DNA of 64,000 bases, taken from contig JAJTHG010000023.1 in the NCBI GenBank assembly GCA_021298835.1, positions 1 to 64,000 on the forward strand, read 5' to 3'. Shown in pieces: positions 14,673 to 37,883 of this stretch (position 1 is its first letter; each line of letters begins with the position of its first letter). The DNA comes from Gemmatimonadota bacterium. GTDB taxonomy: Bacteria > Gemmatimonadota > Gemmatimonadetes > Gemmatimonadales > Gemmatimonadaceae. Position numbers and translations under genes: made by a program. The notes beneath the pieces are model-generated. The model was not told where the DNA came from and made no database searches. It worked only from the letters and a program-made list of their open reading frames with translations.

Positions 14673-14702
14673 CCGTATCGGCCGGCGACGGCCGGAGACG
14701 AC

Positions 14703-20706: not shown

Positions 20707-21392
20707 TGGCCTTCGCCACCGAGCTCGGCCGCGCCGGCGCCATCCTCTGGAAGGACCTCACCGCCGAGCGGCGCACGAAGGCGAACTTCAACAGCGTCGT
20801 GGCGATGGCGGGGCTGATCCTGCTGTTCTTCGGCTTCGCGCTCGGTCCCGACGCGAAGGGGCTGCGGTCCGCGGCGGCGGGCGTGCTGTGGCTGACGGTC
20901 CTCTTCAGCGGCGTGCTGGCGTTCAACCGGTCGTACCAGCTCGAGCTCGACGGCAACGCGCTGGAGCAGCTGCTGCTCTACCCGGGCGAGCGCTGGACCC
21001 TCTTCGCCGGCAAGCTCGCGGCCAACCTGCTCTTCGTCTTCCTTGTCGAGGTCGTGACGATCCCGCTGGCCGGCATCTTCTACCATGTGGCGGTGCCGGC
21101 GCTGTGGGGACAGGTGCTCGGCGTGCTGTTCCTCGGCACGGTGGGCTTCGTCACGCTGGGCACGGTGTACGCGGCGATGGCGAGCCGGAGCCGCGCGCGC
21201 GAGGTGCTCCTGCCGCTGCTGCTCTTCCCCATGCTGGTGCCGGTGCTCATCGCCGCCACCGAGGCCACGGGTGCCCTGCTCATCGACGACCCGATGGGCA
21301 ACGCGGGCAGCTGGATCCGCCTCCTGGCGACCTTCGACGTCATCTTCGTCGTCGCGTCGTTCTGGGTGTTCCCCGCCGTCATCGAAGGCTGA
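20706..21392 (+). CDS. ccmB: CcmB, membrane subunit of the cytochrome c maturation ABC complex
   Basis: A 228-residue integral membrane protein with six hydrophobic segments and the family pattern ILWKDLTAERRTKANFNS at the N-terminus, followed by LFSGVLAFNRSYQLELDGNALEQLLLYP. It pairs with CcmA in the inner membrane. Starts on the ccmA stop; 27 bases separate it from ccmC. Confidence 0.92.
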   Translation: MAFATELGRAGAILWKDLTAERRTKANFNSVVAMAGLILLFFGFALGPDAKGLRSAAAGVLWLTVLFSGVLAFNRSYQLELDGNALEQLLLYPGERWTLFAGKLAANLLFVFLVEVVTIPLAGIFYHVAVPALWGQVLGVLFLGTVGFVTLGTVYAAMASRSRAREVLLPLLLFPMLVPVLIAATEATGALLIDDPMGNAGSWIRLLATFDVIFVVASFWVFPAVIEG

Positions 21393-21419
21393 CATGATCC
21401 CGATCCCCCGGAGTGGCGC

Positions 21420-22178
21420 ATGAGCAGTGTCACGATGCCCGAATCCCGCCCCGACCGCGGTGCCGCCGCGGCCGCAGAGCCGATCGCGCGTCCCAAGGTG
21501 CCGTGGTGGCTGGTCGGCCTCGCGTTCGGCACACTGGTCTCGGGCCAGGTCGTCGGGTTCCTGACGTCGGAGCCCGACCGCGACATGGGGCACCTCCAGA
21601 AGATCATGTACGTCCACGTGCCGGCGGCGTGGGCGAGCTTCATTGCCTTCTTCATCGTGTTCTGGGCGAGCGTCACCGTGCTCTGGAAGCGGAACGAGCG
21701 GGCCGACCTGCTCAACGCTGCGGCCGCGGAGGCGGGGGCGGTGCTCACCGGCCTGACCCTCGTCCTCGGCTCGATCTGGGGCCGCCCGACCTGGGGCGTC
21801 TGGTGGACGTGGGACGCCCGGTTGACGAGCACCGCGGTGCTCTTCCTCGTGTTCGTCGGCTTCCTCGCGCTGCGCGCCCTCACCGACGATCCCGAGCGCC
21901 GGGCGCGGTGGAGCGCCGCCGTCGGCATCCTCGGCGCCCTCAACGTGCCGATCGTGTACATGTCCGTGAAGTGGTGGCGGACGCTGCACCAGCTGCAGTC
22001 GAGCCCGTCCACGGTGGACGCGGACTACGTGCTCGGCCTCCGCTGGAACGCGTTCGCCTTCGCCTTCGCGCTCGCCGCCTTCGTGACCATCCGCTACCGC
22101 ACCGCCCTGTTCGCCCTGGCCGCCGACCGGCGCGCCGAGGCGAGGGCCCTCGCCGGGGGATCCACCGATGCCCGTTGA
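21420..22178 (+). CDS. ccmC: CcmC, haem-handling membrane protein
   Basis: A 252-residue membrane protein of the haem-handling family. The tryptophan-rich periplasmic motif WGRPTWGVWWTWDARLT (about residues 120-136) and the flanking conserved His (YVHVPAAWAS, WWRTLHQ) that ligate haem are present. CcmC loads haem onto CcmE. It overlaps ccmD by 11 bases. Confidence 0.93.
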   Translation: MSSVTMPESRPDRGAAAAAEPIARPKVPWWLVGLAFGTLVSGQVVGFLTSEPDRDMGHLQKIMYVHVPAAWASFIAFFIVFWASVTVLWKRNERADLLNAAAAEAGAVLTGLTLVLGSIWGRPTWGVWWTWDARLTSTAVLFLVFVGFLALRALTDDPERRARWSAAVGILGALNVPIVYMSVKWWRTLHQLQSSPSTVDADYVLGLRWNAFAFAFALAAFVTIRYRTALFALAADRRAEARALAGGSTDAR

Positions 22179-22314
22179 CGGCCGCGTCACCGGCGAATGG
22201 CCCTACGTGATCGCGTCGTACGTGGTCACCTGGGTCGTCTTCGCCGCCTATGCCTTCCACACGTGGCGCGCCTGGTCCGAGGCCGCCCGTTCCGCCGATC
22301 GCCCGGAGCCCTGA
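22168..22314 (+). CDS. ccmD: CcmD-like small membrane protein
   Basis: A 48-residue ORF read directly from the sequence, overlapping the end of ccmC and ending one base before the ccmE ATG. It has one transmembrane segment (YVIASYVVTWVVFAAYAFH) followed by a basic/charged tail (TWRAWSEAARS). Size, topology and place between ccmC and ccmE are those of CcmD, which helps release holo-CcmE. Sequence conservation in this family is low, so the call rests mostly on position. Confidence 0.8.
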   Translation: MPVDGRVTGEWPYVIASYVVTWVVFAAYAFHTWRAWSEAARSADRPEP

Positions 22315-22315
22315 C

Positions 22316-22798
22316 ATGACGCCCTCCACCGCCGCCCAGAACGCCCGTAGCCGCAAGGTCATCGCCATCGCCACCGTCGTGCTGATGCTCGGCGGGTTCG
22401 GTTACCTCGCCTACGGCGGCATCGGCGAGAACATCGTGTACTTCCTCACGCCCGGCGAACTGGTCAAGAAGGGCGAGAAGGCGGTCGAGCGCCCGGTGCG
22501 ACTCGGTGGCCAGGTCGTGGACGGCTCGGTCGTGTGGAACGCCCAGAACCTCGACCTCCGCTTCAAGGTCACCGACGGTCAGGGGACCGAGGTGCTCGTG
22601 CATTCGCGCGGCGCGCCGCCGCAGATGTTCCGCGCCGGCATCGGCGTCGTCGTCGAGGGCAAGTACGGCCGCGACGGCGTCTTCCAGAGCGACAACCTCA
22701 TGGTCAAGCACTCCAACGAGTACCGTGCGCCGGATGCCGAGGCGATGAAGCACCCCGAGCGGCTCAACAAGACCCTCATGCGCGAGAGCCGCTCGTGA
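22316..22798 (+). CDS. ccmE: CcmE, periplasmic haem chaperone
   Basis: A 160-residue membrane-anchored protein: one N-terminal transmembrane helix (about residues 14-33), then a small beta-barrel. The haem-binding motif is VKHSNEY with His at about residue 132 and Tyr at 136; the usual form is LAKHDENY. The ATG at 22316 is one base after ccmD. CcmE carries covalently bound haem from CcmC to CcmF. The stop overlaps the GTG start of ccmF. Confidence 0.93.
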   Translation: MTPSTAAQNARSRKVIAIATVVLMLGGFGYLAYGGIGENIVYFLTPGELVKKGEKAVERPVRLGGQVVDGSVVWNAQNLDLRFKVTDGQGTEVLVHSRGAPPQMFRAGIGVVVEGKYGRDGVFQSDNLMVKHSNEYRAPDAEAMKHPERLNKTLMRESRS

Positions 22799-24861
22799 CC
22801 CGCCAGCTCGGTTACCTCGCGACGATCGTCTCGCTGGCGGTCGCGATCGTCGGGTGCGGCATGGCCGTGCTCGGCGCGCGCCGCCGGCAGGCGTCGCTCG
22901 TCGCCGCGTCGTACAACGCCGTCTACGCGAACTTCTTCCTGCTGGCGATCGCCACCGGGGCGATGATCTACGGCCTCGTGACGCACGACTTCTCGATCGG
23001 CTACGTCGCGCAGGTCGGGAGCCGGGCGACCCCGATGTTCTTCACGGTGATCTCGCTGTGGAGCGCGCTCGAGGGCTCGATCCTCTTCTGGGGCTTCGTG
23101 CTCGCGCTCCTCTCGGCGGCGGTCGTCTGGGCCAACCGGCACCGCGAGGGCACCCTCGTCCCGTACGCCGCGGCGGTGCTGCTCGGGATCGGCGCCTTCT
23201 TCTTCCTGCTGCTCGTGGGGCCCGCCAACCCGTGGCACCTCGTCTCGCCGACGCCGGCCGACGGCCCGGGCCCGAACCCGCTGCTGCAGAATCACCCGCT
23301 CATGGCGGTCCACCCGCCGCTGCTCTACCTCGGCTACGTCGGGATGGCGATCCCCTTCGCGTTCGCGATGGGGGCGCTGCTCTCCGGCGAGATCGACCGG
23401 ACCGACTGGATCGTCCTCACCCGCCGCTATACCCTCGCCGCCTGGGCCTTCCTCTCGCTCGCGATCATGGCCGGCATGTGGTGGTCGTACGAGGTGCTCG
23501 GCTGGGGCGGCTACTGGGCGTGGGACCCGGTCGAGAACGCGTCGTTCATGCCGTGGCTGACGGCCACCGCATTCCTCCACTCGGTGATGGTGCAGGAGCG
23601 CCGCGGCATGCTGAAGCTGTGGAACGTCAACCTCATCGCCGCGACGTTCCTGCTGACGATCCTCGGCACCTTCCTCACGCGCTCCGGCGTCCTGAGCAGC
23701 GTGCATGCGTTCACCACCGGGACGATCGGCTACTACTTCCTCGCCTTCATCGCGGCGGGGTTGGTCCTGACGTTCGCGCTGGTCGCCGGCAACTCGGAGA
23801 AGCTCGCAAGCGAGGGACGCCTCGACGCGCCGGCGTCGCGCGAAACGGTCTTCCTGCTCAACAACCTGTTCCTGACCGCGTTCACCTTCACCGTGCTGCT
23901 CGGGACGCTCTTCCCCCTCGTGGCGGAGGCGATCAAGGGAATCAAGGTCAGCGTCGGGGCCCCCTTCTTCAACCAGATGACGGTGCCCATGTGCGCCGCG
24001 CTGCTCTTCCTGATGGGCGTCGGGCCGTCGCTCCCGTGGCGCCGGACCTCGGCGGCGCAGGTGAAGGCGCTGGCGCTGGCCCCCGCGATCGGCGCCGTCG
24101 CGGGCGTCGCGGCCGGCCTCGCCTTCGGCATCCGCGACCCCTTCGCCCTGGCCACCCTGGCCTTCGCCGCCTGGGCGCTGGTCTGCAACGTGCGCGAATA
24201 CCAGGTCGGCGCCGCCGCCCGCATGAAGGCGCACGGCGAATCCGTCCCCGTCGCCGTCGGGCGCCTCGTCGCGGCCAACCAGCGGCGCTACGGCGGCTAC
24301 GTCGCCCACTTCGGCATCATCATGATGGCGATCGCCATCGCCGCCTCGTCGTCGTACAAGTACGAGAAGGAGGCGACGCTCAAGCCCGGCGCGACCATGC
24401 CGTTGCGCAGCTTCGACCTCCGCTTCAAGGAGGTCTGGGGCCGCGACGAGCCGCACCGGCAGGTGATCGGTGCCGACGTCGAGGTGCTCGACAAGAAGAC
24501 CGGGGCGGTGCTCGCCACGCTCGACCCGCGCCTCAACTTCTATCCCACGCAGGAACAGCCCGTGCCGACCCCGTCGGTGCGCAGCCGGCCGGTCGGCGAC
24601 CTCTACCTCAACCTGATGGCCTTCACGCCGGACGGCGCCTCGGCGACGATCCGCGCGATCGAGGAGCCGCTCGTCCCCTGGATCTGGGTCGGCGGGTTCG
24701 TCGTCGCCTTCGGGGCGGTCATCTCGGGCTGGCCGACGCGTCGCTCCGCCGGCCGCCGCATGGTCCCGGTGCGTGCGCCCCTCGGCGCCGCAGCCGGCTT
24801 CGGCGCACCGGCAGGCACCGGCGTCGCCACCGCGAACCAGGTCGCCAGCCCCGTGGCATGA
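22795..24861 (+). CDS. ccmF: CcmF, cytochrome c haem lyase subunit
   Basis: A 688-residue polytopic membrane protein. The haem-handling tryptophan motif WSYEVLGWGGYWAWDPVENAS is at about residues 224-244, with the flanking conserved His in HPPLLYLGYVG and in AFLHSVMVQERRG, and YGGYVAHFGIIMMA near residue 500. It starts at the GTG that overlaps the ccmE stop. CcmF with CcmH attaches haem to apocytochromes, here presumably including the CX4CH motifs of the downstream cytochromes. Confidence 0.94.
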   Translation: MTRQLGYLATIVSLAVAIVGCGMAVLGARRRQASLVAASYNAVYANFFLLAIATGAMIYGLVTHDFSIGYVAQVGSRATPMFFTVISLWSALEGSILFWGFVLALLSAAVVWANRHREGTLVPYAAAVLLGIGAFFFLLLVGPANPWHLVSPTPADGPGPNPLLQNHPLMAVHPPLLYLGYVGMAIPFAFAMGALLSGEIDRTDWIVLTRRYTLAAWAFLSLAIMAGMWWSYEVLGWGGYWAWDPVENASFMPWLTATAFLHSVMVQERRGMLKLWNVNLIAATFLLTILGTFLTRSGVLSSVHAFTTGTIGYYFLAFIAAGLVLTFALVAGNSEKLASEGRLDAPASRETVFLLNNLFLTAFTFTVLLGTLFPLVAEAIKGIKVSVGAPFFNQMTVPMCAALLFLMGVGPSLPWRRTSAAQVKALALAPAIGAVAGVAAGLAFGIRDPFALATLAFAAWALVCNVREYQVGAAARMKAHGESVPVAVGRLVAANQRRYGGYVAHFGIIMMAIAIAASSSYKYEKEATLKPGATMPLRSFDLRFKEVWGRDEPHRQVIGADVEVLDKKTGAVLATLDPRLNFYPTQEQPVPTPSVRSRPVGDLYLNLMAFTPDGASATIRAIEEPLVPWIWVGGFVVAFGAVISGWPTRRSAGRRMVPVRAPLGAAAGFGAPAGTGVATANQVASPVA

Positions 24862-24886
24862 CCGTCTCGGACGCCGGGAGCCCCCC

Positions 24887-25465
24887 ATGAACTGGAAGCG
24901 CGCGGCCATCGCCGCGGGCGTCGCCCTGCCGATCATCGGCCTGCTGGCCTTCGGCATGACGCGAGACCCCAAGGACATCCCCTCGCCCCTGCCGGGCAAC
25001 CCCGCGCCGTCGGTCGAGCTGGCCACGTTCGCCCCGGGCGACGAGCCCGTGCTCGTGCGGGCCGCCGGGACCCCCGTCCGGCTCTCCGCGATGCGGGACA
25101 CGGTCGTCGTCGTGAACTTCTTCGCCTCGTGGTGCATGCCGTGCCGCGTCGAGCATCCCGCCCTGAGCGCGATCGCCCGACGCTACGCCGACCGACCGGT
25201 GCGCTTCTTCGGGGTGCTCTACAACGACACCGAGGCCAACGCCCGCCGGTGGATCGACATGATGGGCGGCCAGCCGTATCCGGCGTTGGCCGATCCGGGC
25301 GCCCGGACGGCGATCGACTTCGGCGTGTACGGCGTCCCGGAGACCTTCTTCGTCGGACGCGACGGACGCGTGGCCTCGAAGTTCACCGGCCCGCTCACCG
25401 AAGCGGTCCTGACGCAGAAGCTCGACTCGTTGCTGGCGCCCGCGGCGCCGAAGGGGGCGGAATGA
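24887..25465 (+). CDS. ccmG: CcmG/DsbE-type thioredoxin, membrane-anchored
   Basis: A 192-residue periplasmic thioredoxin held by an N-terminal membrane segment (about residues 5-24). The active site is WCMPC (Cys 83 and 86), and the cis-Pro loop reads GVYGVPETFFV, which is characteristic of CcmG/DsbE. It keeps the apocytochrome Cys pairs reduced. It overlaps ccmH by 4 bases (ATGA). Confidence 0.92.
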   Translation: MNWKRAAIAAGVALPIIGLLAFGMTRDPKDIPSPLPGNPAPSVELATFAPGDEPVLVRAAGTPVRLSAMRDTVVVVNFFASWCMPCRVEHPALSAIARRYADRPVRFFGVLYNDTEANARRWIDMMGGQPYPALADPGARTAIDFGVYGVPETFFVGRDGRVASKFTGPLTEAVLTQKLDSLLAPAAPKGAE

Positions 25466-26022
25466 TTCCGGTCCGGATGGCCATGGCGACGTGCATTCTC
25501 CGCGTGGCCGCCGCGGTCGCCGCGAGCACTGCGACGGCAGGGGCGCAGGCCGGCCTCCCGCCGGCACCCGCCGCCGCGGGCGCCGAGGCGCCGCCGAGCC
25601 AGCCCATGATCGGGCTGACGACTCAGGTGCCGACCATCGGCGTGGACTCCGCGCTCGAAGCCCGGGTCAAATCGGTGTCGGCCACCTTGCGCTGCCCGGT
25701 CTGTCAGGGACTCTCGCTGCAGGACTCGCCGTCGGAACTCGCCCAGCAGATGCGCGGCGTGGTGCGCGAGCAGATGGCGCAGGGCAAGTCCGATGACGAG
25801 GTGCGGCAGTACTTCATCGCCAAGTACGGCGACTGGATCCTGCTCAAGCCCAAGGCCGAGGGGTTCTCGACTCTCGTGTACCTGCTGCCGGCGCTGTTCG
25901 TCGTCGGCGGGGCCGCCGTCGTGTGGGTGATGGCGAAGCGTTGGTCGGTGCCGGTCGCGACAGCGCAGGGGCTCGACGAGCCCGCGCCGACACCCCAGCC
26001 AGTATCGGCAACGGCTCCGTAA
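25462..26022 (+). CDS. ccmH: CcmH, cytochrome c maturation thiol protein
   Basis: A 186-residue protein with a signal peptide, a long Ala/Pro-rich segment, the redox motif LRCPVCQG (Cys 78 and 81), the three-helix domain with QQMRGVVREQMAQGKSDDEV and YGDWILLKPK, and one C-terminal transmembrane helix (STLVYLLPALFVVGGAAVVWV). It lacks the CcmI-type TPR part of the longer Escherichia coli protein, and no separate ccmI was seen. Last gene of the operon. Confidence 0.92.
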   Translation: MIPVRMAMATCILRVAAAVAASTATAGAQAGLPPAPAAAGAEAPPSQPMIGLTTQVPTIGVDSALEARVKSVSATLRCPVCQGLSLQDSPSELAQQMRGVVREQMAQGKSDDEVRQYFIAKYGDWILLKPKAEGFSTLVYLLPALFVVGGAAVVWVMAKRWSVPVATAQGLDEPAPTPQPVSATAP

Positions 26023-26301: not shown

Positions 26302-27909
26302 ATGAACGCCAGGCTTCGTTCGCAGTTCGCCAGTTGGACGGTGGCCGCCCTGATCGTCGCCGCGACGTCCGCCGTCGCCTGCGTGGACGAAAAGATCGTG
26401 TTCCGGGATGCTCCCCGGTTCCAGAACCCACCGGCGAACGCCGGCAACTATCTCGGCTACACGGACACCACGGCCAAGATGACGGCCTGCGGGTCGTGCC
26501 ACGTCGGCATTCAGGCCGAATGGCGCGGCACGGCGCACGCGAACGCGTGGGCCTCGCTGCCGGCCAACGCCCAGACCTTCTGCCAGAGCTGCCACGCCGT
26601 CGGGAGTCTCGGCAACGCCGACACGAGCTCGACGGGCGGGTGGCCGGGCACGCGGGACCCGCGCTACAAGGACGTGCAGTGCGAGAACTGCCACAACTCG
26701 GGGCTCACGCATGCGAGCAACCCGACGACGGCGAACATCCCGCTGCCGTCCATGAACGTGGATACCTCGGCGGCCGCGCGCCGCGGCACCTGTGGCGAAT
26801 GCCACGCCGGGGCGCATCACCCGTACCTGACCGAGTGGCGGGCGTCGTCGCATGGCGCCATGCCCAACTGGTCGTCGCCGAAGACGCGGCCCGAGTGCCA
26901 GGCCTGCCACACCGGTCAGGGGGCGCTCCGCGCGCTCGGCGTGGATGCCGAGTCGAACTACCGCGAGAAGAACTTCGCCGGCGGCGACACGCTGCGCATC
27001 ACCTGCGCGGTCTGCCATGACCCGCACGCGAACCGCAACTCGGGCCAGCTGCGCCTGTCGGTCTCGGATGCGGACCCCGAGCGCAACCTGTGCATGAAGT
27101 GCCACAACCGGCGCGCGATCCCCGAGATCTCGTCGCAGACGCGCGGCCCGCACTCGGCCGAAGGCCCGCTGGTGATCGGCACGGCCGGCTGGGAACCCCC
27201 GGGCGTGGACATCCCGAGCGTCCCGGCGACGCACGGCAGCCCCTCCGCGAACCCGAAGCTCTGCGCCACCTGCCATGTCACGCGCTTCACCGTGACCGAC
27301 TCGGTGGGCGGGTTCAGCTACCAGGTGACGGGCCACGGCTTCCACGCCGCCCCGTGCGTGGACGGGACCGGCAAGCCCACGGCCGCGCAGAACTGCGCCT
27401 ACACGGCGGCCGCCCGCAACCTCAACTCCTGCGCTACCTCCGGATGCCACACCGGCGGGGCGACGCAGGCGGCGACGATCACCACCTCGCGGATCGCCAC
27501 GATCCAGACGATCGGCGGCATCCTGCGTGGCCTGCTCAACAACTCGGCCTTGGCGGGCCAGATTGCCCAGAACTCGGTGTACACCGCGGCCGAGGGCGCC
27601 CGGTTCAACTGGCTGCTCGCCTTCGACTCGCTCTCCGGCGGGCCGACGGGCGGATCGGTGAAGGTCGGGGCGGTCGTCCACAACGGGCCGCGCGTCGAGG
27701 CCCTGATCAACGCCTCGATCGTCGCCCTCCGCGCCGCGTACCCGGCGCTGCCCCAGTCGGCTCGCGCCGACCAGGAGGCGGTCCTCCGGGAGTCGATGGC
27801 CCGGACCGGCGTGAAGATGGTGGATGTGAAGGCCCTCGTGAACGCGAAGGCCCTTCCTGCCCCGACGAGTCTCGGCGGCTCGCTCACGGGGACGGACCCG
27901 CAGCACTGA
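26302..27909 (+). CDS. 9-haem cytochrome c lipoprotein
   Basis: A 535-residue exported protein with a lipobox-like SAVAC ending at Cys 27. Eight CXXCH motifs (Cys at about 63, 94, 127, 164, 199, 235, 264 and 321) and one CX4CH (CATSGCH at 377) give nine predicted haems, all in the first 385 residues. Extra His residues (AHHPY, SSHG, THGS) can serve as distal ligands. Residues 390-535 carry no haem motif and look helical (GGILRGLLNNSALAGQIAQ). The overall pattern is of doubled-CXXCH multihaem cytochromes used in respiratory electron transfer. RBS GAGGA sits just before the ATG. A hairpin separates it from the 20-haem gene, but the two are probably one regulon. Confidence 0.88.
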   Translation: MNARLRSQFASWTVAALIVAATSAVACVDEKIVFRDAPRFQNPPANAGNYLGYTDTTAKMTACGSCHVGIQAEWRGTAHANAWASLPANAQTFCQSCHAVGSLGNADTSSTGGWPGTRDPRYKDVQCENCHNSGLTHASNPTTANIPLPSMNVDTSAAARRGTCGECHAGAHHPYLTEWRASSHGAMPNWSSPKTRPECQACHTGQGALRALGVDAESNYREKNFAGGDTLRITCAVCHDPHANRNSGQLRLSVSDADPERNLCMKCHNRRAIPEISSQTRGPHSAEGPLVIGTAGWEPPGVDIPSVPATHGSPSANPKLCATCHVTRFTVTDSVGGFSYQVTGHGFHAAPCVDGTGKPTAAQNCAYTAAARNLNSCATSGCHTGGATQAATITTSRIATIQTIGGILRGLLNNSALAGQIAQNSVYTAAEGARFNWLLAFDSLSGGPTGGSVKVGAVVHNGPRVEALINASIVALRAAYPALPQSARADQEAVLRESMARTGVKMVDVKALVNAKALPAPTSLGGSLTGTDPQH

Positions 27910-28004: not shown

Positions 28005-30017
28005 ATGCACCTCGCTCCTCTCGTCCTCGCGCAGCTCCACGGCGTCGGCACCGACTCGGTGGTCGTCAAGAACCCCGTCCCGGGGGGCCTTGGCTGGGTG
28101 ATGTCGAAGTTCTTCAACGCGCCGCAGTGGGTGCACCTCACCCTGGTCGTGGTGGGCCTCGTCGTCGGCGGCGCGGCGGCCTGGTGGGCCTGGAGAAACC
28201 GGGAGGCCATCCTCACTTGGCTCAGGACCCGTGACCGCCCGGCCAAGATCGCGCTCGCCACCGTCGCCGGCGTCGCCGTGCTCGTCGGCGCCGGTGCCGG
28301 CGGCTACGGCTTCTGGTACATGGAGCACGAGAACGACTTCTGCCTCGGCTGCCACGTGATGAACCCGTCGTGGGCCAAGTTCCAGAAGTCCGAGCACAGC
28401 AAGCTCGGCTGCCACGACTGCCACCGGCAATCGCAGGTCGCCAATGCCCGCCAGCTCGTCATGTGGATCGCCGAGCGGCCGGACGAGATCCCGAAGCACG
28501 GCAAGGTCCCGACGCGCATCTGCGCCGAGTGCCACATCCAGAAGCCGGGCTCGGACAGCACGTGGAAGCGCATCATCGCCACGGCCGGCCATCGCGTGCA
28601 CATGGCCAGCAACGACACCGCGCTCAAGAACGTGCAGTGCGTCACCTGCCACGGTGTCGAGGTGCATGCCTTCCAGCCGGTGGACCAGACCTGCGCCCAG
28701 TCCGGCTGCCACACCGACACCAAGGCCAAGATCGTCCTCGGCAAGATGGCCGGCCAGACGTCGCTGCACTGCACCGGCTGCCACCAGTTCACGCGACCGG
28801 TCGCCGAGAACATCTCGATCGACTCCACCAAGAAGGCGGGTCAGGCGGGGGCGTCGCAGTGCCTCGACTGCCACGAGATGCGGCAGCAGATGAAGGGCTT
28901 CGATCCCAGCGCCGACAAGCACGCCGGCCTCTGCGGCAACTGCCACAACCCGCACACCGACAAGACGCCCGAGGCCTCCTGGAAGACCTGCGGCAACGCC
29001 GGCTGCCACACCAAGCCGGCCGAGGAGACTCCCTTCCACAAGGGGATCCCGGATCACGCCCTGAAGAGTTGCCAGAGCTGTCACGCGGCCCACACGTGGA
29101 AGGCCGAGGGCTCGAGCTGCCTGACCTGCCACAAGTCCATCTTCACCGACGAGTCCCGGCCGCGCGGGGCGAAGGCGGCGGCGCAGGCCCCGTCCGCGCC
29201 GGGAGCCGTGGCGCCGTCCGTTCCCCGCCGCTCGCCGCGGCGCGAACCGGCGGGCGTGGTGGGGCCGGCGGCGGTCGCCTCCCCTGCTTCGCCATCATCG
29301 CCGATCCGCCTCGCCGGCCTTGCCGCTCCCGCCTCGGCCTTCTGGCTCGCGGTCCACCAGCCCCCGCCCAAGCGCACGCCGGAGGGTTCGGCCCGAACGG
29401 CCGGCGACCGACTCACCGCCGAGGATCGCCCCTTTCGGCATCGCACCCACAAGGACGTCACCTGCACCGCCTGCCACAGCTCGGACAGCCGGCACGGCGC
29501 CGTCACGGTCAAGACCGCCGCCGACTGCCAGTCGTGTCATCACGCCGCCGACCGCGCGCGAGGGTGCGAGGGCTGCCACGCGGCGAAGTCGCTCGCCCAG
29601 CCGCTCTCGATCACCCGTGAGGTCAAGTTCACGGTCGCCAACGCACCCCGGACCCGCGTGCAGCGCTTCGCGCATCCGCAGCATCGCGATCTCGAGTGCG
29701 CCACGTGCCATACCAAGGGCCCCGAGCTCGCCGTCACGAAGGACTGCGCCTCGTGTCACAAGGAGCACCACGAGCCGGACCGCGACTGCCGCAGCTGCCA
29801 CACGGGGGTCAAGGACCACCATACCCGGTCGGTGCACCAGGGCTGCGCCGCCGCCGGGTGTCACGTCGGAGCCGAGTATGCCGCGATGCCGACGGCCCGG
29901 CAGGTGTGCCTCTCCTGCCACGTGGACATGAGCAACCACAAGCGCGGCGGCGAGTGCGCCGACTGCCACAAGATGACGACGTGGTCGGCGACGGCCGGCC
30001 TGCCCAAGGGGAGCTGA
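28005..30017 (+). CDS. 20-haem membrane cytochrome c with NapC/NirT-like N-terminus
   Basis: A 670-residue protein. Two membrane helices lie at about residues 42-63 and 82-105, then NapC/NirT-like haem sites (FCLGCHVMNPSW, LGCHDCHRQS). Module A (residues 113-376) has 11 haem motifs, two of them CX4CH (CAQSGCH at 230, CGNAGCH at 329). A Pro/Ala/Arg-rich linker (about 385-480) includes a short hydrophobic run near 434-450. Module B (487-655) has nine motifs, one CX4CH (CAAAGCH near 614). Seventeen CXXCH plus three CX4CH make 20 predicted haems. NapC/NirT proteins take electrons from quinol, so this could be a quinol:periplasm wire; the two modules look like a fusion of separate cytochromes. Followed 4 bases later by the barrel gene. 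Confidence 0.88.
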   Translation: MHLAPLVLAQLHGVGTDSVVVKNPVPGGLGWVMSKFFNAPQWVHLTLVVVGLVVGGAAAWWAWRNREAILTWLRTRDRPAKIALATVAGVAVLVGAGAGGYGFWYMEHENDFCLGCHVMNPSWAKFQKSEHSKLGCHDCHRQSQVANARQLVMWIAERPDEIPKHGKVPTRICAECHIQKPGSDSTWKRIIATAGHRVHMASNDTALKNVQCVTCHGVEVHAFQPVDQTCAQSGCHTDTKAKIVLGKMAGQTSLHCTGCHQFTRPVAENISIDSTKKAGQAGASQCLDCHEMRQQMKGFDPSADKHAGLCGNCHNPHTDKTPEASWKTCGNAGCHTKPAEETPFHKGIPDHALKSCQSCHAAHTWKAEGSSCLTCHKSIFTDESRPRGAKAAAQAPSAPGAVAPSVPRRSPRREPAGVVGPAAVASPASPSSPIRLAGLAAPASAFWLAVHQPPPKRTPEGSARTAGDRLTAEDRPFRHRTHKDVTCTACHSSDSRHGAVTVKTAADCQSCHHAADRARGCEGCHAAKSLAQPLSITREVKFTVANAPRTRVQRFAHPQHRDLECATCHTKGPELAVTKDCASCHKEHHEPDRDCRSCHTGVKDHHTRSVHQGCAAAGCHVGAEYAAMPTARQVCLSCHVDMSNHKRGGECADCHKMTTWSATAGLPKGS

Positions 30018-30021: not shown

Positions 30022-31551
30022 ATGCGCCTGACGCGGCGTCCGGGGCCGGCCGGCACGGCACGACGCCTCGCGTGGTGGCTCCCGCTCCTCGCGGCGTGGT
30101 CGGGGCTCGGCCCCGCCGCCGCCCTCGAGGCCCAGGGCATCCGGCTGCGCGGCGTGACCACGACGCGATTCCTCGAACTGCAGCGCTTCGAGGACGACAG
30201 CGTCGCCGAATCGGCGACCTTGCCGTACGCGGGCGACTTCCGCCAGACGCCCTCCGGTGTCGTCGTCCGCTGCAACCTGGACACCTGGTGCCGCTACAAG
30301 CGGTCCGGCGAAATGGCCACGTCCATTCCCGTCTGGCAGGACCTTCAGGCCACCGCGTGGGGGCTCGGCGAAGGGGTGAGCGTCCATGCCGACATGCGCT
30401 TCCGGGGTGCCATGGGGTCGCTACCGGCGCTCTGGCCCCGGGCGGAGGACCGCTTCGACCTCCTGAGCGGCTACGTCGAGCTCGACCGGCCCCGCTGGAC
30501 GGCGCGGCTCGGCCGTCAGTTCGTCTCGAACGGCATGGGCGTCTACAACTACGACGGCCTGACATTGATCGCGCGCCCGCACCGCATCCTGACCGCCGAG
30601 GTGTGGGGCGGGCGTTCGCTCCTCCGCGGCATCAACGAGGGCTACACGTCCAGCGAGATCGCGAACGTCGAGGAACTCCCGCCGGATCGCGAGGCGATCA
30701 TCGCGGGGGCGTCGGTGCGCGTGCGGCCGACCCGCTTCTCCTCGATGCGGTGGATGTACCAGCGCGAAGCCCGCTGGAACGGCGGCCTCCGCTCGTCCGG
30801 GCTCTACAGCGACCGCATGGCCCTCGACGGCACCTCGCGCATCGTCCACGGCGCACTCGACGCCTCGTTCGAGTACGACTTCGCCGGCCGACAGCTCAAC
30901 GAAGGGCGCGTCCGCTGGCGCGGGCTCCTGCCCCGCAACGTCGAGGCCTCGGTCGAAGGCCGTCGCTTCCGGCCGTTCTTCGAGCTGTGGACGATCTGGG
31001 GGGCGTTCGCCCCCGTCGGCTTCGACGAACTGCGCCTCGACGGGGGCTGGGCCACCCGCGACCACGGACTCGCGCTCGACTTCTTCGGCGGCTGGCGCAA
31101 GTGGCAGGATGCCAACGTCGGCCTCGCCTTCCAGCCGCTGCGCCAGACGGGGTGGCGCGCCGGCGGCGACGTCACGCTCCGGCCGCTCGCGCGCTGGGTC
31201 CTTTCCGGCCACTACGACGCCGACGTCGGCGCCGGCGCCGCCCGGACCGAGACCGACGTCGCCGTCCGCTACGAGACCAGCGACCGGTTCTACGTCGGCC
31301 TCGCCGGCACGAGCATGCAGAGTCTCTTCGAGTTCCGCATCGGGACCGGGCGCATGCTCGGCGGCGGCCTCGACTTCGGGTGGCGCCTGACGCCGGTCGT
31401 GCGCATCGCCGGCGATGTCATGGTCTATCGACACCGGCAATCCTCGGACTCGCCCTTCATGAACTGGACCCAGCGCCGAGGCAGCGTGCGGCTCGAATGG
31501 ACCATGGGGGGCGACCCGGGGCTGCGCACCGGTGCGCGGGGGGCCCTGTGA
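30022..31551 (+). CDS. predicted outer-membrane beta-barrel, possible cytochrome-conduit porin
   Basis: A 509-residue exported protein (signal peptide to about residue 39, ending EAQG). The mature part consists of alternating-pattern strands with many aromatic residues (SVHADMRFRGAMGS, LLSGYVELDRPRWTARLGRQ, LEWTMGG near the end), fitting a barrel of roughly 20 or more strands. It has no TonB plug or box. Two Cys near residues 91 and 97 (CNLDTWC) are unusual in such barrels. It sits between two multihaem cytochrome genes, the place held by MtrB/PioB-type porins in porin-cytochrome conduits, but I see no clear MtrB sequence signature. It overlaps the next gene by 4 bases (GTGA). Confidence 0.65.
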   Translation: MRLTRRPGPAGTARRLAWWLPLLAAWSGLGPAAALEAQGIRLRGVTTTRFLELQRFEDDSVAESATLPYAGDFRQTPSGVVVRCNLDTWCRYKRSGEMATSIPVWQDLQATAWGLGEGVSVHADMRFRGAMGSLPALWPRAEDRFDLLSGYVELDRPRWTARLGRQFVSNGMGVYNYDGLTLIARPHRILTAEVWGGRSLLRGINEGYTSSEIANVEELPPDREAIIAGASVRVRPTRFSSMRWMYQREARWNGGLRSSGLYSDRMALDGTSRIVHGALDASFEYDFAGRQLNEGRVRWRGLLPRNVEASVEGRRFRPFFELWTIWGAFAPVGFDELRLDGGWATRDHGLALDFFGGWRKWQDANVGLAFQPLRQTGWRAGGDVTLRPLARWVLSGHYDADVGAGAARTETDVAVRYETSDRFYVGLAGTSMQSLFEFRIGTGRMLGGGLDFGWRLTPVVRIAGDVMVYRHRQSSDSPFMNWTQRRGSVRLEWTMGGDPGLRTGARGAL

Positions 31552-33137
31552 CGCGATTCCGCCTCCCCCCGCTCGCGCGACTGGCCCGTCCCGCCCTGGT
31601 CGCGTGGCTCGTCGCGGCAACGGCGTCCGCCGGTATCGGGGTGGCCGCGCTGGCCCGCGACCGTTCCGACGAGGGCTTCCCGCATGCCCGGCACGCCCGC
31701 CTGTTTCCCACGTGCACGGGCTGTCACGCCGGCATCGCCACGGGCGCCCAGGCAGCCGCGTACCCGGATTCCGCCTCGTGTGCCCAATGCCACGACGGCG
31801 TCCAGCAGCCGAAGGTCCCGTGGGCCCGCAGCAGCGTCGCCCGCAGCAACCTCCGCTTCGACCATGGCGCGCATGCGGCCAAGCCGGAAGCGCAGGCGCT
31901 CGAGTGCCGCAGTTGCCACGGCGTCGCCGGTGGACCGTTCATGAACGTCAAGCGGGCCGAGGCCGCCGAGTGCGTCAATTGCCACGCGCACAAGGCGACC
32001 GCGCACTTCGCGGCCGACAATGCGCCGGCGTGCGTCACCTGCCACGTGCCGGTCACCCGGGCGACGGCCCTGCCGGCCGAGCGCATCGGGCGCTTTCCCA
32101 AGCCGCCGAGCCACGAGACCCGCGACTACGTGCAGTCCCACGCCCGTGACGTGCAGGCCGCCGGCGGCTCCTGCGCCACCTGCCACAGCCGCGAGAGCTG
32201 CGCCCGCTGCCACGCGAACGTCGCCAGCGTCCCCAGCGCCGCCGCGCTCGGCTCGGACGCCCGCGTCGCCAGTCTGGTGCGCGGCAAGGCGGGCACATAC
32301 CCCGTCCCGGCGTCGCACCGCAGCGGCACCTTCGACGCCGAGCACGGCCGGCTGGCCGAGGCCGCAGGTGCCACCTGCGCCAACTGCCACACGCGCCCGA
32401 GTTGCGACGCCTGTCACATCGGGCCGCTCGGCCGCGCGACGATCGCGCGTCTCCCGATGCCGCTCCCCGGCGCGGCGCAGGGGGTTCGCATCGAGCGGGC
32501 GCCGACCTGGGGTCAGGCGACACCGCTGCGTGAGCGCTATACCCTCACGGCGTTCCACCCCGACACCGAGCCCGCGTCCAGCGCCCCGGCTGTCCCACAG
32601 GTGTCGGGTGATCCCGGGGTGCGCCGCGTGCGGCCGCATCCGCCGGGTTACGTCACGCACCACGGCACCGAGGCCGCCGTGGCGGGCAACAGCTGCAGCG
32701 GGTGCCATACGCAGCAGCGCTTCTGCTCGGACTGCCACGACGGCGAGGGACGCCGCCGGTTCCATCCGGCGAACTTCACGGCCCGCCACCCCTCGGACGC
32801 CTACGGCCGCGAGAAGGATTGCGCGCTCTGCCACCAACCGGAGATCTTCTGTCGGACGTGCCACGTCCAGGCGGGACTGGCCTCCGAAGGGCAGCTCAAG
32901 ACGGCGTATCACACCGGGCAACCCCTGTGGCTGCTCAACCACGGCCGCGCCGCGCGGCAGACGCTGCAGAGCTGCACGACCTGCCACACCCAGCGCGACT
33001 GCATGCAGTGTCACTCGTCGTTCGGCTGGAAGGTCAATCCGCACGGGCGCGGGTTCAACGCGCTCGCGATGTACTCGCGCAACCGGCTGATGTGCTTCCG
33101 GTGCCACGCGACGGATCCGATCGCCGGCTCGCCGTAG
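31548..33137 (+). CDS. 16-haem cytochrome c
   Basis: A 529-residue exported protein starting with GTG on the barrel stop. It has an N-terminal signal or anchor segment (about residues 10-36) and sixteen CXXCH motifs spread over the whole chain, from CTGCH near 56 to CFRCH near the C-terminus, with His-rich spacing typical of bis-His cytochromes (FPHARHARLFPTCTGCH, LRFDHGAHA, GYVTHHGTE). The motifs come in pairs (CATCH/CARCH, CANCH/CDACH, CSGCH/CSDCH, CALCH/CRTCH, CTTCH/CMQCH). No catalytic motif was recognised, so an electron carrier or terminal surface cytochrome is more likely than a nitrite or sulfite reductase. Confidence 0.88.
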   Translation: MTRFRLPPLARLARPALVAWLVAATASAGIGVAALARDRSDEGFPHARHARLFPTCTGCHAGIATGAQAAAYPDSASCAQCHDGVQQPKVPWARSSVARSNLRFDHGAHAAKPEAQALECRSCHGVAGGPFMNVKRAEAAECVNCHAHKATAHFAADNAPACVTCHVPVTRATALPAERIGRFPKPPSHETRDYVQSHARDVQAAGGSCATCHSRESCARCHANVASVPSAAALGSDARVASLVRGKAGTYPVPASHRSGTFDAEHGRLAEAAGATCANCHTRPSCDACHIGPLGRATIARLPMPLPGAAQGVRIERAPTWGQATPLRERYTLTAFHPDTEPASSAPAVPQVSGDPGVRRVRPHPPGYVTHHGTEAAVAGNSCSGCHTQQRFCSDCHDGEGRRRFHPANFTARHPSDAYGREKDCALCHQPEIFCRTCHVQAGLASEGQLKTAYHTGQPLWLLNHGRAARQTLQSCTTCHTQRDCMQCHSSFGWKVNPHGRGFNALAMYSRNRLMCFRCHATDPIAGSP

Positions 33138-33224: not shown

Positions 33225-33725
33225 ATGTCCATGCGCCGAACCTTGACGCTCGCCTGCGCGGCCACCTTCACCGCTTCGCTGGCCGCCTGCAAGGCGGAAC
33301 GGGAGGCCCCGAAGACGCCCATCGGATCCGCGGCCGGCTCGGCTGCCCGCGACCGGATGCCGACGGCGGCGCGCGCCGCCCTCGACAGCGGGAACGTGCT
33401 CCTGCGCGGCGGCGACGCGAAGGGGGCCATCGCCCAGTACACCCTCGCCGCCAACGCCGACCCCGGCAACGCCGCCCCGTGGTACGGCGTCATGATGGCC
33501 GCGCAGCGCGCGGGTGACCAGCGGCTCGCCGACTCGGCCGCCGCGATGGTGCGCAAGACGAGCGGCAATCCGCAGCTCACCGACTCGGGGATGGCGAAGA
33601 TGCATGCCGAGGGCGGCGCCGGCCTTCCGCCCGGTCATCCCTCGGCGGGCATGCCGCAGGGTCACCCGCCGATCGGCGGCGCGCCGTCCGCCCCCAAGAC
33701 CCCGGCGCCGAAGAAGACGACCTGA
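33225..33725 (+). CDS. small TPR-like lipoprotein
   Basis: A 166-residue lipoprotein (lipobox LAAC near residue 22). Residues 45-115 hold one or two TPR-like helical pairs (ALDSGNVLLRGGDAKGAIAQYTLAANADP, GVMMAAQRAGDQRLADSAAAMV). The C-terminus is Pro/Gly/His-rich (LPPGHPSAGMPQGHPP) and ends with a Lys tail. It follows the 16-haem gene by 87 bases and precedes the hydrogenase. An assembly or scaffold role for the cytochrome complex is possible but unproven. Confidence 0.65.
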   Translation: MSMRRTLTLACAATFTASLAACKAEREAPKTPIGSAAGSAARDRMPTAARAALDSGNVLLRGGDAKGAIAQYTLAANADPGNAAPWYGVMMAAQRAGDQRLADSAAAMVRKTSGNPQLTDSGMAKMHAEGGAGLPPGHPSAGMPQGHPPIGGAPSAPKTPAPKKTT

Positions 33726-33967: not shown

Positions 33968-35122
33968 ATGATCGTCCCGCATGCGATTCCCTGGGCCCCC
34001 GATCAGGAACTGGGGCAGTACCTCGAACAGCGCGGCGTCTCGCGCCGAGGGTTCCTGAGGTTCTGCGGCGAGATGACCGCCGTCCTCGGCCTCGCCAGCA
34101 ACTTCGCGCCGCGGGTCGCGCGGGCGCTCGAGACGATGAAGCGGCCAAGCGTCATCTGGATCTCGCTTCAGGAGTGCACGGGCTGCACCGAGAGCATCCT
34201 GCGCACGGCCGAGCCGACGATCGGCGACCTGCTGCTCGACGTGATCTCCCTGGACTTCCAGGAGAATCTCATGGCGGGCGCGGGCGACGCGGTCGAGGAC
34301 GCGATGCACGCGGCGATGAAGGAGAACAAGGGCAAGTACGTCCTCGTCGTCACCGGCTCGATTCCCATCAACGAGGATGGCTTCTACACCACGGTGGCGG
34401 GTCGCCCGGTGCGGGAGATCCTCGAGGAAACCGCCAAGGACGCGGCGGCGGTGGTGGCCGTCGGGGCGTGCGCCCACTGGGGCAACGTCCAGGCCGCGCG
34501 CCCGAACCCCACCGGTGCCGTCGGCGTGGCCGACATCATCAAGGACAAGCCGGTCGTGAACATCGCGGGCTGCCCGCCGATCGGCGACGTCATCACGGCG
34601 ACGCTCGTGCACTACGTGACCTTCGGCCGCGTCCCCGAGCTCGATCGCGAGGGGCGTCCCCTCTTCGCGTACGGGGCGAAGATCCACGACCAGTGCCCGC
34701 GCCGCGCGAACTACGACGCCGGCCAGTTCGTCGAGGCGTTCGACGATGCCGCGGCGCGCGAGGGCTACTGCCTCTACCACGTCGGCTGCAAGGGGCCGTC
34801 CACCTTCTCGCCCTGCCCGATCTTCCAGTGGAACACGCGCACCTCGTGGCCGATCGGCGCGGGGCACCCGTGCATCGGCTGCACGGAGCGCGGCTTCTGG
34901 GACACCATGACGCCGTTCTACGGCCGGTTGCCGGACATCGCCGGCATCGGCGTCGAGAAGACCGCCGACATCATCGGTGCGGTCGCGGCGGTCGGCGCCA
35001 CCGCCGGGATCCTCGGCCACGCGGCCCTCACCGGCGTGTCGCGGATGCGGGCGCGCGAACTCCCGCAGTATCCCAACGGCCCCGGGTCCTCCGGCGGCGC
35101 CTCCAACGCCCCCAAGGCCTGA
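33968..35122 (+). CDS. [NiFe] hydrogenase, group 1 type, small subunit
   Basis: A 384-residue Fe-S subunit exported by the Tat pathway: SRRGFLRFCG at residues 25-34. The proximal-cluster ligands begin in ECTGCTES (Cys 70 and 73); GACAHWGNVQAA and AGCPPIGD supply the next ones; the medial/distal clusters use the C-terminal Cys/His set (HDQCPRRANYD, HVGCKGPSTFSPCP, HPCIGCTERGFWD). Positions that hold the two extra Cys of O2-tolerant enzymes are Gly (CTGC) and Asn (WGN). A C-terminal hydrophobic helix (IIGAVAAVGATAGILGHAAL) anchors it to the membrane. It is co-transcribed with the large subunit 15 bases on. Confidence 0.93.
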   Translation: MIVPHAIPWAPDQELGQYLEQRGVSRRGFLRFCGEMTAVLGLASNFAPRVARALETMKRPSVIWISLQECTGCTESILRTAEPTIGDLLLDVISLDFQENLMAGAGDAVEDAMHAAMKENKGKYVLVVTGSIPINEDGFYTTVAGRPVREILEETAKDAAAVVAVGACAHWGNVQAARPNPTGAVGVADIIKDKPVVNIAGCPPIGDVITATLVHYVTFGRVPELDREGRPLFAYGAKIHDQCPRRANYDAGQFVEAFDDAAAREGYCLYHVGCKGPSTFSPCPIFQWNTRTSWPIGAGHPCIGCTERGFWDTMTPFYGRLPDIAGIGVEKTADIIGAVAAVGATAGILGHAALTGVSRMRARELPQYPNGPGSSGGASNAPKA

Positions 35123-35137
35123 GCGGAGACTAGAGCC

Positions 35138-36847
35138 ATGGCAGTCACCAAGGTCGTCGTCGATCCCATCACGCGCATCGAGGGGCACCTTCGCATCGAA
35201 GCGCAGCAGGAGAACGGGCGGATCACCAAGGCATGGTCGAGCGCCACGCAGTTCCGCGGCCTCGAACTCGTGCTCAAGGACCGCGACCCCCGCGACGCGT
35301 GGGCCTTCGCCCAGCGCATCTGCGGCGTCTGCACGGTCGTCCACGCGGTGGCCTCGCTGCGCGCCGTCGAGGACGCGCTCGACATCCGCATCCCGCCCAA
35401 CGCCAACACGATCCGCAACCTCATGGTCGGGATGCAGTTCATCCAGGACCACGTCATCCACTTCTACCACCTGCACGCGCTCGACTGGGTGGACGTCACG
35501 AGCGCGCTCAAGGCCGACCCGGTCGCGGCCGCCCGCCTCGCCCGCTCGCTCTCCCCCTGGCCCAACAACTCCGAGTCGCACTTCAAGCTCGTCCAGGACC
35601 GCGTCCGCACCTTCGTGGCCTCGGGGCAGCTCGGCATCTTCACCAACGGCTACTGGGGTCACCCGGCGTACAAGCTGCCGCCGGAGGCGAACCTCATGGC
35701 CGTCGCACACTACCTCGAGGCCCTCGACTGGCAGCGCGATATCATCCGCCTGCACGCGATCTTCGGCGGCAAGAACCCGCACCCGAACTTCGTCGTCGGC
35801 GGCATGGCCAGCGCCATCAACCTCGACGCCCGCGCGACGATCAACACCGAGCGCCTCACCGACGTGCACGACATGATCCGGAACGCCCTCCGGTTCGTCG
35901 AGCAGGTCTATTGGCCCGACCTCCTCGCGATCGCGTCCTTCTACAAGGACTGGGGCGCCATCGGCGGCGGCGTCAAGAATCACCTCGCCGTCGGCGAGTT
36001 CCCGAAGAACGACATCCGCGACGTCGCGGGGCTCTACTTCCCGCGGGGGATCATCCTCGACAACGACCTCAGCACCGTCCATCCCTACGACCAGGCCGGC
36101 GTCACCGAGGAGATCACCTCGGCGTGGTACGAGTACGAGGGGGCCGACGCCCTGCACCCCTGGGACGGCCAGACCAAGGCCGCCTACACCGGCCCGAAGC
36201 AGAAGTGGACCTACCTGCAGGACGAGAAGAAGTACACGTGGATGAAGGCGCCGCGATACAACGGCAAGGCGATGCAGGTGGGCCCCCTCTCGCGCTGCCT
36301 CGTGGGCTACGCCAGCGGCCACGACGACATCAAGGCGCTCGTCGGCGAGGTGCTCGGACGCCTCGACGTGCCGCCCGCCGCCCTGTTCTCGACCCTCGGA
36401 CGCACCGCGGCCCGCGGCATCGAGAGCGTGCTGATCGCGCGCAAGATGGTCGAGTGGTACGACGAGCTCGTCGGCCGGATCAAGGGAGGCGACACCCGCA
36501 CCTTCGACGGCTCGAAGTGGGAGCCCGGCACCTGGCCCAAGGAATCCAAGGGCTACGGCTACATGGACGCCCCGCGCGGCGCCCTCGGCCACTGGGTGCG
36601 CATCAAGGACGGCAAGATCACCAACTATCAGGCCGTCGTCCCCAGCACCTGGAACGCCTCGGGACGCGACAAGGCGGGCCAGCCGGGCGCCTACGAGGCC
36701 GCCCTGCAGGACAACCACCCCCTCGTGGATCCCAAGCGCCCCATCGAAATCCTGCGCACCGTGCACTCGTTCGACCCGTGCATCGCCTGCGGCGTGCACG
36801 TGCTCGACGCCACCGGCCGGCAGGTGACGGAGGTGAAGGTGCAATGA
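35138..36847 (+). CDS. [NiFe] hydrogenase, group 1 type, large subunit
   Basis: A 569-residue subunit holding the NiFe(CN)2CO site. The L1 motif RICGVC is at residues 60-65 and L2 DPCIACGVH near 547-555 (Cys 548 and 551). The sequence ends with 15 residues after the His (VLDATGRQVTEVKVQ), the peptide that the HupD-type protease would remove. The N-terminal DPITRIEGH is typical. With the membrane-anchored small subunit and the cytochrome b it should oxidise H2 at the periplasmic face and pass electrons to the quinone pool. The stop overlaps the next start by 4 bases (ATGA). Confidence 0.95.
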   Translation: MAVTKVVVDPITRIEGHLRIEAQQENGRITKAWSSATQFRGLELVLKDRDPRDAWAFAQRICGVCTVVHAVASLRAVEDALDIRIPPNANTIRNLMVGMQFIQDHVIHFYHLHALDWVDVTSALKADPVAAARLARSLSPWPNNSESHFKLVQDRVRTFVASGQLGIFTNGYWGHPAYKLPPEANLMAVAHYLEALDWQRDIIRLHAIFGGKNPHPNFVVGGMASAINLDARATINTERLTDVHDMIRNALRFVEQVYWPDLLAIASFYKDWGAIGGGVKNHLAVGEFPKNDIRDVAGLYFPRGIILDNDLSTVHPYDQAGVTEEITSAWYEYEGADALHPWDGQTKAAYTGPKQKWTYLQDEKKYTWMKAPRYNGKAMQVGPLSRCLVGYASGHDDIKALVGEVLGRLDVPPAALFSTLGRTAARGIESVLIARKMVEWYDELVGRIKGGDTRTFDGSKWEPGTWPKESKGYGYMDAPRGALGHWVRIKDGKITNYQAVVPSTWNASGRDKAGQPGAYEAALQDNHPLVDPKRPIEILRTVHSFDPCIACGVHVLDATGRQVTEVKVQ

Positions 36848-37632
36848 CCCAGCTCGCCTCGGGCATCCCGCTCGAGCCGCCCGTCACTCCCGACGGGCCG
36901 GCGGGCCGGATCCTCCAGCACCCGGTCGGCAAGCCCCAGGGGCACTACGAGTGGGTGTACCTGTGGCAGCTGCCCATCCGGGCCATGCACTGGGTCGCGG
37001 CCGCCTCGATGGTCGTGCTGATCATCACCGGCTTCTACATCGGCCGGCCCTACTTCATGACCCAGACGCTGGCGACGGGCTCGTTCTCGTTCCAGTGGAT
37101 GCGGCTCTTCCACTTCGTGGCCGGCTTCCTGCTCATCGCCACGGCGCTGGTGCGCCTCTACTGGCTCGTCGCCGGCAACAAGTTCGAACGCTTCACCGCC
37201 CTCTTCCCGGTGCGCCCGCGCGACCTCAAGAACCTGTGGCGGATGATCCTCCACTACAGCTTCATCGACCGGCGCGAGATCCGCTACATCGGCCACAACC
37301 CGCTGCAGCAGCTGAACTACACCTCCGTGTACGTCGCGGCGGTCATCATGGCGCTGACCGGGCTGGCGCTCTACGGCACCGCCAACCCGTCCGGCCTCGT
37401 GTGGCAGTCGTTCGCCTGGGTGGCCGACCTCTTCGGCGGACTCCCGCGCGTCCGGCTCGTGCACCACGTGCTCACCTGGTACTTCCTCGTCTTCATTCCC
37501 GGCCACATCTACTTCGTGCTGCGGAGCGACCTCTACGAGGTCGGCAACCTCTCGAGCATCATCAACGGCGGCAAGTTCGTCGAGGCCGGGCACGACTACA
37601 TCGACCACAACCCTTCCGCGACCACCACCTAG
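36844..37632 (+). CDS. hydrogenase cytochrome b subunit (HyaC/HupC type)
   Basis: A 262-residue membrane protein with four hydrophobic segments and the haem-ligand His positions of the Ni/Fe-hydrogenase b-type cytochromes: LPIRAMHWVAAASM, MRLFHFVAGFLL, and VRLVHHVLTWYFLVFIPGHIYF. It links the small subunit to quinone. A cytosolic 40-residue N-terminal extension precedes the first helix. Its TAG stop overlaps the GTG of hypA by one base. Confidence 0.92.
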   Translation: MTQLASGIPLEPPVTPDGPAGRILQHPVGKPQGHYEWVYLWQLPIRAMHWVAAASMVVLIITGFYIGRPYFMTQTLATGSFSFQWMRLFHFVAGFLLIATALVRLYWLVAGNKFERFTALFPVRPRDLKNLWRMILHYSFIDRREIRYIGHNPLQQLNYTSVYVAAVIMALTGLALYGTANPSGLVWQSFAWVADLFGGLPRVRLVHHVLTWYFLVFIPGHIYFVLRSDLYEVGNLSSIINGGKFVEAGHDYIDHNPSATTT

Positions 37633-37883
37633 TGCACGAGTTCAGCGTCGCATTGGAGATCTGTCGCATCGCCGAGGCCCAGGCGGCTCCCCGCCCCGCC
37701 TCGGCGATCGTCTCGGTCGGCGTCGAGATCGGCGAGGGCACCGACCTCGTCGTCGAGAACCTCAACTTCTGCCTCGAGACCCTGCTCGCCTCGCCGCCGT
37801 TCGAACGGGCGGCACTCGCGGTGGAACGGGTCCCGGGCAACGACCTCAGGGTCGCGTGGCTGGAGGTGGACGATGGCCGTTAG
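37632..37883 (+). CDS. hypA: HypA-like nickel chaperone lacking the zinc-ribbon domain
   Basis: An 83-residue ORF starting at GTG on the cytochrome b stop. The N-terminus HEFSVALEICRIAEAQ matches HypA, including the nickel-binding His at position 2, and the fold strands IVSVGVEIGEG and the helix NLNFCLETLL are kept. Normal HypA has about 113 residues with two CxxC pairs in an inserted zinc ribbon. Here none exists, and ERVPGNDLRVAWLEVD joins the strand before the ribbon directly to the C-terminal strand. It looks like a clean domain excision, not a frameshift. It overlaps hypB by 11 bases. Nickel insertion may rely more on HypB or work without zinc. Confidence 0.75.
   Translation: MHEFSVALEICRIAEAQAAPRPASAIVSVGVEIGEGTDLVVENLNFCLETLLASPPFERAALAVERVPGNDLRVAWLEVDDGR

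Follow-up and report, generated by a model that had tools for sequence, protein, structure and literature searches.

The 670-residue protein encoded at positions 28005..30017 (+ strand, ATG start) of the 64,000-nucleotide stretch of Gemmatimonadota DNA analysed here (the window) is a 20-haem fusion cytochrome, in which an 11-haem module (module A) is joined through a tether to a 9-haem module (module B). It is a real, ancient two-part protein of Gemmatimonadota soil bacteria; many families inherited the joined form, which is thus not peculiar to the source genome. The fusion probably moves electrons from the inner membrane through the periplasm to a pore-and-cytochrome exit, for respiration outside the cell. 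On balance, we favour the full reading that, within a conserved Gemmatimonadota porin-cytochrome system for extracellular electron transfer (EET), it makes up the half located in the inner membrane and periplasm, with module B serving as a leashed carrier.

The reading frame contains 17 CX2CH and three CX4CH motifs, the latter at C230, C329 and C614. Eleven motifs lie between residues 113 and 376, and nine between residues 487 and 655. The first-pass annotation had described exactly such a protein, with 20 haem motifs in modules of 11 and nine; the limits of the frame and the motif count were both reproduced, and the count lies far above that of shuffled residues (mean 0.34 motifs, maximum 4 in 2000 shuffles). 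The ATG lines up with the start of L001, a homologue of 45% identity, which has module A and lies on an 11.7 kb contig with no neighbour of the unit described below. In 52 neighbourhoods and the window we counted 28 complete fusions from many Gemmatimonadota families, each of them one uninterrupted frame with 20 motifs split 11 + 9. A further fusion (L019) is cut by a contig end and stands outside the 28, while at two loci (L002, L083) module A is missing only through contig ends. In an alignment of the 28 complete homologues all 60 haem Cys and His columns are invariant (60/60), and 23 additional His residues outside the motifs are conserved as candidate distal ligands. Because 28 homologues encode both modules in one frame, a sequencing error and a recent joining event can both be rejected, and with them the concern raised at first that an error had united two genes. 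The source genome assembly comprises 3.46 Mb in 82 contigs. A scan of contigs from close relatives returned two Gemmatimonadota loci, and no relatives of the system were found in plasmid and viral collections.

Two N-terminal hydrophobic helices (residues ~45–64 and ~80–108; 28137..28328, + strand) precede the first haem, as had been annotated, with best 19-residue Kyte-Doolittle means of 1.85 and 1.95. They also appear in a low-confidence AlphaFold model of the fusion, at residues 41–64 and 78–118; the AlphaFold models of porin and fusion are otherwise too poor to use (pLDDT 31–32). The helices are separated by an Arg/Lys-rich loop, which according to the positive-inside rule would be cytoplasmic, so that the whole chain downstream of haem 1 would be periplasmic. 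The first helix is absent from several relatives (for example L024, L026, L027, L074 and L079); the segment before haem 1 is hydrophobic in all homologues (19-residue hydropathy 1.38–2.56).

Module A itself (28341..29132, + strand) combines an NrfH-like start with an MtrA/DmsE-like remainder. Its first haems match NrfH (PDB code 2J7A; residues 74–143; E 5.6e-8) and TIGR03153 (E 1.4e-6; 28.4 bits, below the cut-off of 134.2), in agreement with the NapC/NirT-like character assigned to them earlier, and the PF03264 score of 21.4 bits falls below the cut-off of 24.1. The later haems weakly match chain A of the MtrABC entry 6R2Q and TIGR03508, and their likeness to the MtrA/DmsE-type decahaem cytochromes is accordingly weak; module A differs from these in its membrane anchor and its 11 haems. 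The CXXCHxM first haem retains Met49 of NrfH as M119 in 96% of the 28 homologues. Lys82 and Asp89 of NrfH, which we take to lie near the quinol site, correspond to a gap and to Gln150, respectively, so that a quinol activity of module A is unproven by these residues.

The membrane anchor and the hydrophobic segment ahead of a CXXCHxM haem liken the fusion to NapC/NirT proteins such as NrfH and CymA, from which it departs not only at the two quinol-site positions but also in having 20 haems instead of four or five and in carrying module B. It would share with ImcH the place of an inner-membrane quinol oxidase of EET. However, the three helices, CX3CH first haem and 6–10 motifs of ImcH (PMC6295460) differ from the one or two helices and CX2CH first haem of the fusion. 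CbcL and MtoC homologues are large inner-membrane multihaem cytochromes that serve EET and carry up to 23 motifs (PMC6295460); together with the numbers in ImcH homologues, these provide precedents for the high haem number of the fusion. The C-terminal six-helix cytochrome b part of CbcL, MtoC and MtrH, in contrast, has no counterpart in the fusion. Filing the protein as NrfH/CymA, ImcH or CbcL was thus considered, but the features compared do not permit it.

Modules A and B are connected by a Pro/Ala/Arg/Ser-rich tether (29133..29405, + strand) that measures ~90–110 residues in the window fusion and 60–170 residues across the homologues. It is unconserved, with a mean identity of 21% and 61% gaps, compared to identities of 46% for module A and 38% for module B. 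The linker of about 100 residues reported in the first-pass annotation therefore stands; the short hydrophobic run noted within it is present, but is not conserved among homologues and remains below threshold. Its best 19-residue hydropathy is 1.22, and the values for all homologues range from −0.29 to 1.30, while the usual transmembrane threshold is a 19-residue Kyte-Doolittle mean of 1.6. Since no tether reaches this value, none of the homologues has a transmembrane helix at this point, and the third membrane helix that had been raised as a possible objection is rejected. Such a helix would also leave the nine c-type haem sites of module B, all of them invariant, on the cytoplasmic side, and it is contradicted by the conservation of the module B motifs and by the signal peptide of a free-standing module B (see below). 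The tether is thus very unlikely to contain a membrane helix.

It had been suggested that the linker joined an inner-membrane quinol oxidase to a periplasmic wire. The joining is borne out, in that an NrfH-like module is fused to a periplasmic multihaem module beside a conduit cluster; the notion of a rigid wire fits less well. In a rigid arrangement, modules A and B would stand end to end and form a continuous haem chain from the quinol site to the porin. The strictly conserved haem number would suit this, and a chain of 11 + 9 haems might in principle be long enough for a large part of a 235 Å periplasm (width from PMC5971433). We nevertheless regard it as quite unlikely, as a joint of such variable length, so gapped and so little conserved, does not provide a conserved rigid connection, and as module B persists without module A. 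A leashed carrier fits better with a tether that is long, unconserved and flexible.

Module B (29406..29984, + strand) is a class III/c7-like domain with nine haem motifs that occurs without module A at two loci (L064 and L086). It stands alone at the same gene position in genomes G176 and G102, both from one genus, with a clear signal peptide in G176 (L064) and residual N-terminal hydrophobic segments in G102. In the module B tree these genes are nested inside the fusion clade (support 99/93), and the loss of module A is therefore derived. Relatives that encode the two modules as neighbouring genes, which the first-pass annotation had thought worth looking for, were sought and not found; module A has instead been lost secondarily in two relatives. 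A two-gene ancestor was rejected on the same grounds. To judge from a second type of large fusion (see below), this 9-haem domain seems to be portable.

No module A was found elsewhere in G176 and G102, where only weak matches to NrfH-like starts were obtained. These matches are proteins with ImcH architecture (~512 residues, three helices, one CX3CH and six CX2CH motifs), so that an ImcH-like protein is found where module A was lost. Among 22 searched genomes this type is confined to G176 and G102, and it is absent from a fusion-bearing genome of the same genus (G073). It is found in 10 of 200 genomes, in none of the 27 fusion genomes and in four of the 20 porin-bearing genomes without a visible fusion, three of whose contigs end near the porin; the contrast of 4/20 with 0/27 involves small numbers of related genomes that are not phylogenetically independent. 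Such a replacement pattern is expected if module A is a quinol oxidase and ImcH can substitute for it. For Gemmatimonadota, a published survey of quinol oxidases reports a single homologue of CbcL type and two of ImcH type (PMC6295460).

The fusion belongs to a unit with the gene order 9-haem lipoprotein, fusion, porin and 16-haem cytochrome, which is complete in ~25 loci and by its anatomy is a porin-cytochrome EET system. The porin-like, putative outer-membrane protein (30022..31551, + strand; 509 residues) resembles a beta barrel and has a signal-peptide-like N-terminus and strands of alternating hydrophobicity, with 25 amphipathic strands compared to 14.4 ± 2.6 in shuffles. It gave no convincing match to a Pfam or NCBIfam model and matched no PDB chain. 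The exported 16-haem cytochrome (31548..33137, + strand) starts with a GTG that overlaps the porin stop (GTGA) and is the probable conduit partner of the porin. The porin gene adjoins a multihaem cytochrome gene in nearly all loci with a porin match, and since some loci have this pair without a fusion, we regard porin and 16-haem cytochrome as the core of the unit. A TPR-containing putative lipoprotein (33225..33725, + strand) is kept near the cluster in 16 loci.

The first gene of the unit encodes a 9-haem lipoprotein cytochrome (26302..27909, + strand) with eight CX2CH motifs and one CX4CH motif, a probable surface reductase. Its lipobox-type Cys27 is invariant in 10 homologues, and its profile matches OcwA of Thermincola potens (6QVM; E 6.5e-17), a nonahaem protein described as a cell-surface terminal reductase (PMC6703420). 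OcwA, however, belongs to a Gram-positive cell wall, whereas the protein considered here is a didermal lipoprotein. Further profile matches, to octahaem nitrite reductase, c554 and hydroxylamine oxidoreductase, speak for another reading, in which there is no extracellular conduit: the lipoprotein would be an ONR/HAO-like enzyme, and the set of proteins would reduce a soluble substrate, either periplasmic or at the outer membrane. We give this explanation very little credence, because the lipoprotein lacks the CX2CK catalytic motif and because the most constant pair of the unit, porin and 16-haem cytochrome, would be needless for such an enzyme.

The anatomy of the unit is shared with the MtrCAB, OmbB-OmaB-OmcB, PCC3/PCC4 and OetABI conduits, which likewise combine a porin gene with an exported multihaem cytochrome and a lipoprotein cytochrome. 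It differs from them in a porin without convincing homology to any curated family and in the 16-haem partner. In place of the fusion cytochrome found here, PCC3 and PCC4 moreover include an inner-membrane protein that has five helices and is probably of b type (PMC5566968), with two HX13H motifs; among the genes called in the window cluster, no candidate for such a protein was noticed.

Gemmatimonadota are a very common soil phylum, in which, to our knowledge, few systems for extracellular respiration have been described. In the open-licence literature searched on Gemmatimonadota and EET, no description of the present system was found. With the porin as bait, so that clusters without a recognisable porin are missed, relatives were detected in 14 of 21 near genomes and in 60 of the 200 genomes sampled from the phylum, which points to a wide distribution of extracellular respiration among its members.

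In the mechanism that we favour, one or two helices would hold module A in the membrane, where it would oxidise menaquinol at its NrfH-like first haem pair and gather the electrons on its 11 haems. Module B, on its flexible tether of 60–170 residues, would then serve as a leashed carrier, taking electrons from module A to the 16-haem cytochrome, which would sit in or against the porin and conduct them across the outer membrane. At the outer terminus, the OcwA-like lipoprotein would deliver them to an external acceptor. Quinol oxidation, the direction of flow, the function of the leash and the external acceptor are all elements that we infer. The role proposed for module B is suggested by the properties of the tether, by the relationship of the module to soluble cytochromes and by the free-standing version in G176, and menaquinone is named as the quinol because the genome contains genes of the futalosine route (PF02621 twice).

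In Shewanella, the tips of CymA and MtrAB each reach ~50 Å into a periplasm of 235 ± 37 Å, leaving a gap of up to ~100 Å for which carriers are needed (PMC5971433). By analogy with this gap, the fusion would supply the periplasmic carrier in the same chain, and a single polypeptide could reach from the quinol site towards the outer membrane. The ‘nanowire’ cytochromes of the GSU1996 type and the STC and FccA shuttles are, as proposed for module B, multihaem carriers of the periplasm between inner and outer membrane; they are free, however, whereas module B is covalently bound to the presumed quinol-oxidase module. More tentatively, and with somewhat less confidence than we would need to assert it, quinol oxidase and carrier might be united in one polypeptide throughout the phylum, with a covalent leash instead of diffusing shuttles and a porin system unrelated in sequence to the curated ones. 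For Shewanella and Geobacter, the periplasmic crossing from quinol oxidase to outer-membrane conduit is an unsettled question, and diffusing shuttles have to be assumed. A natural fusion of oxidase and carrier, with tether variants of 60–170 residues and deletions of module A accompanied by ImcH, makes this question testable.

The unit lies within a single same-strand island from 19.3 to 43.5 kb. Upstream, positions 19264..26022 (+ strand) encode a hydrogenase maturation protease together with the cytochrome c maturation set CcmA, CcmB, CcmC, CcmE, a CcmF-like protein, DsbE/CcmG and a CcmH/NrfF-like protein; the reading at 22755–24858 matched no NCBIfam model and is called CcmF-like from gene order and sequence. 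Downstream follow the small subunit (with a Tat signal), large subunit and cytochrome b of a [NiFe] hydrogenase (33968..37632, + strand), and then a truncated HypA, HypB, HypF, HypC, HypD and HypE (37632..43473, + strand). A [NiFe] hydrogenase is also found beside the cluster at L019 and L084; the arrangement is rare, with three of ~50 loci, from three genera, and it suggests H2-driven extracellular respiration. In the source genome the hydrogenase would probably feed the quinone pool, with H2 as one donor. Because this genome has three genes for haem-copper oxidase subunit I, and so also encodes aerobic respiration, external respiration would be optional. The porin, the 9-haem and 16-haem cytochromes and the hydrogenase lie outside the segment that the first-pass annotation described, yet the fusion can hardly be understood without them.

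The haem-copper oxidases would be in keeping with an inward flow, in the manner of Mto/Pio-like systems, with Fe(II) or another external donor supplying the conduit and module A acting as a quinone reductase; both porin-cytochrome systems and CymA/CbcL-type quinone enzymes work in either direction (PMC6295460). The menaquinone genes, the neighbouring hydrogenase and the terminal-reductase relative of the lipoprotein favour outward flow, however, and so does the association with ImcH, which has so far been tied only to quinol oxidation (PMC6295460). We hold inward flow to be unlikely.

Several further features of these loci were observed. The HypA reading of the window (37632–37883) comprises ~83 residues and matches positions 1–68 of a 116-position model, and its zinc-binding C-terminal part seems to be missing. 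In two genomes of the same order, molybdopterin oxidoreductase genes flank the cluster (L030:2921-5368 and L032:889-6894), accompanied in L032 by iron-sulfur and NrfD-type genes, so that this conduit may also be fed by other electron donors. Two tandem genes for 9-haem lipoproteins lie upstream of the porin at L084, L095 and L022, and one genome (G100) has two separate porin clusters (L060 and L061). At L066, L075, L076, L078, L088 and L091, related porins are accompanied by a shortened 16-haem cytochrome that has 9–12 motifs and lacks an internal segment.

A second type of large fusion, encoded on the − strand at L066:9909-12053, L072:13176-14999, L088:10826-13333, L092:10239-12368 and L022:17079-19001, has a different NapC/NirT-like start (YSAQPxFCxxCH...), 21–25 haem motifs and a module-B-like end. 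At L022, where module A is absent, an 11-haem cytochrome, a b561-type cytochrome and a 14-haem protein ending in module B are encoded at 11684-15320, a set that apparently represents an alternative inner-membrane module. A 14-haem protein similar to that of L022 is encoded in another cluster without module A (L061:818-2722).
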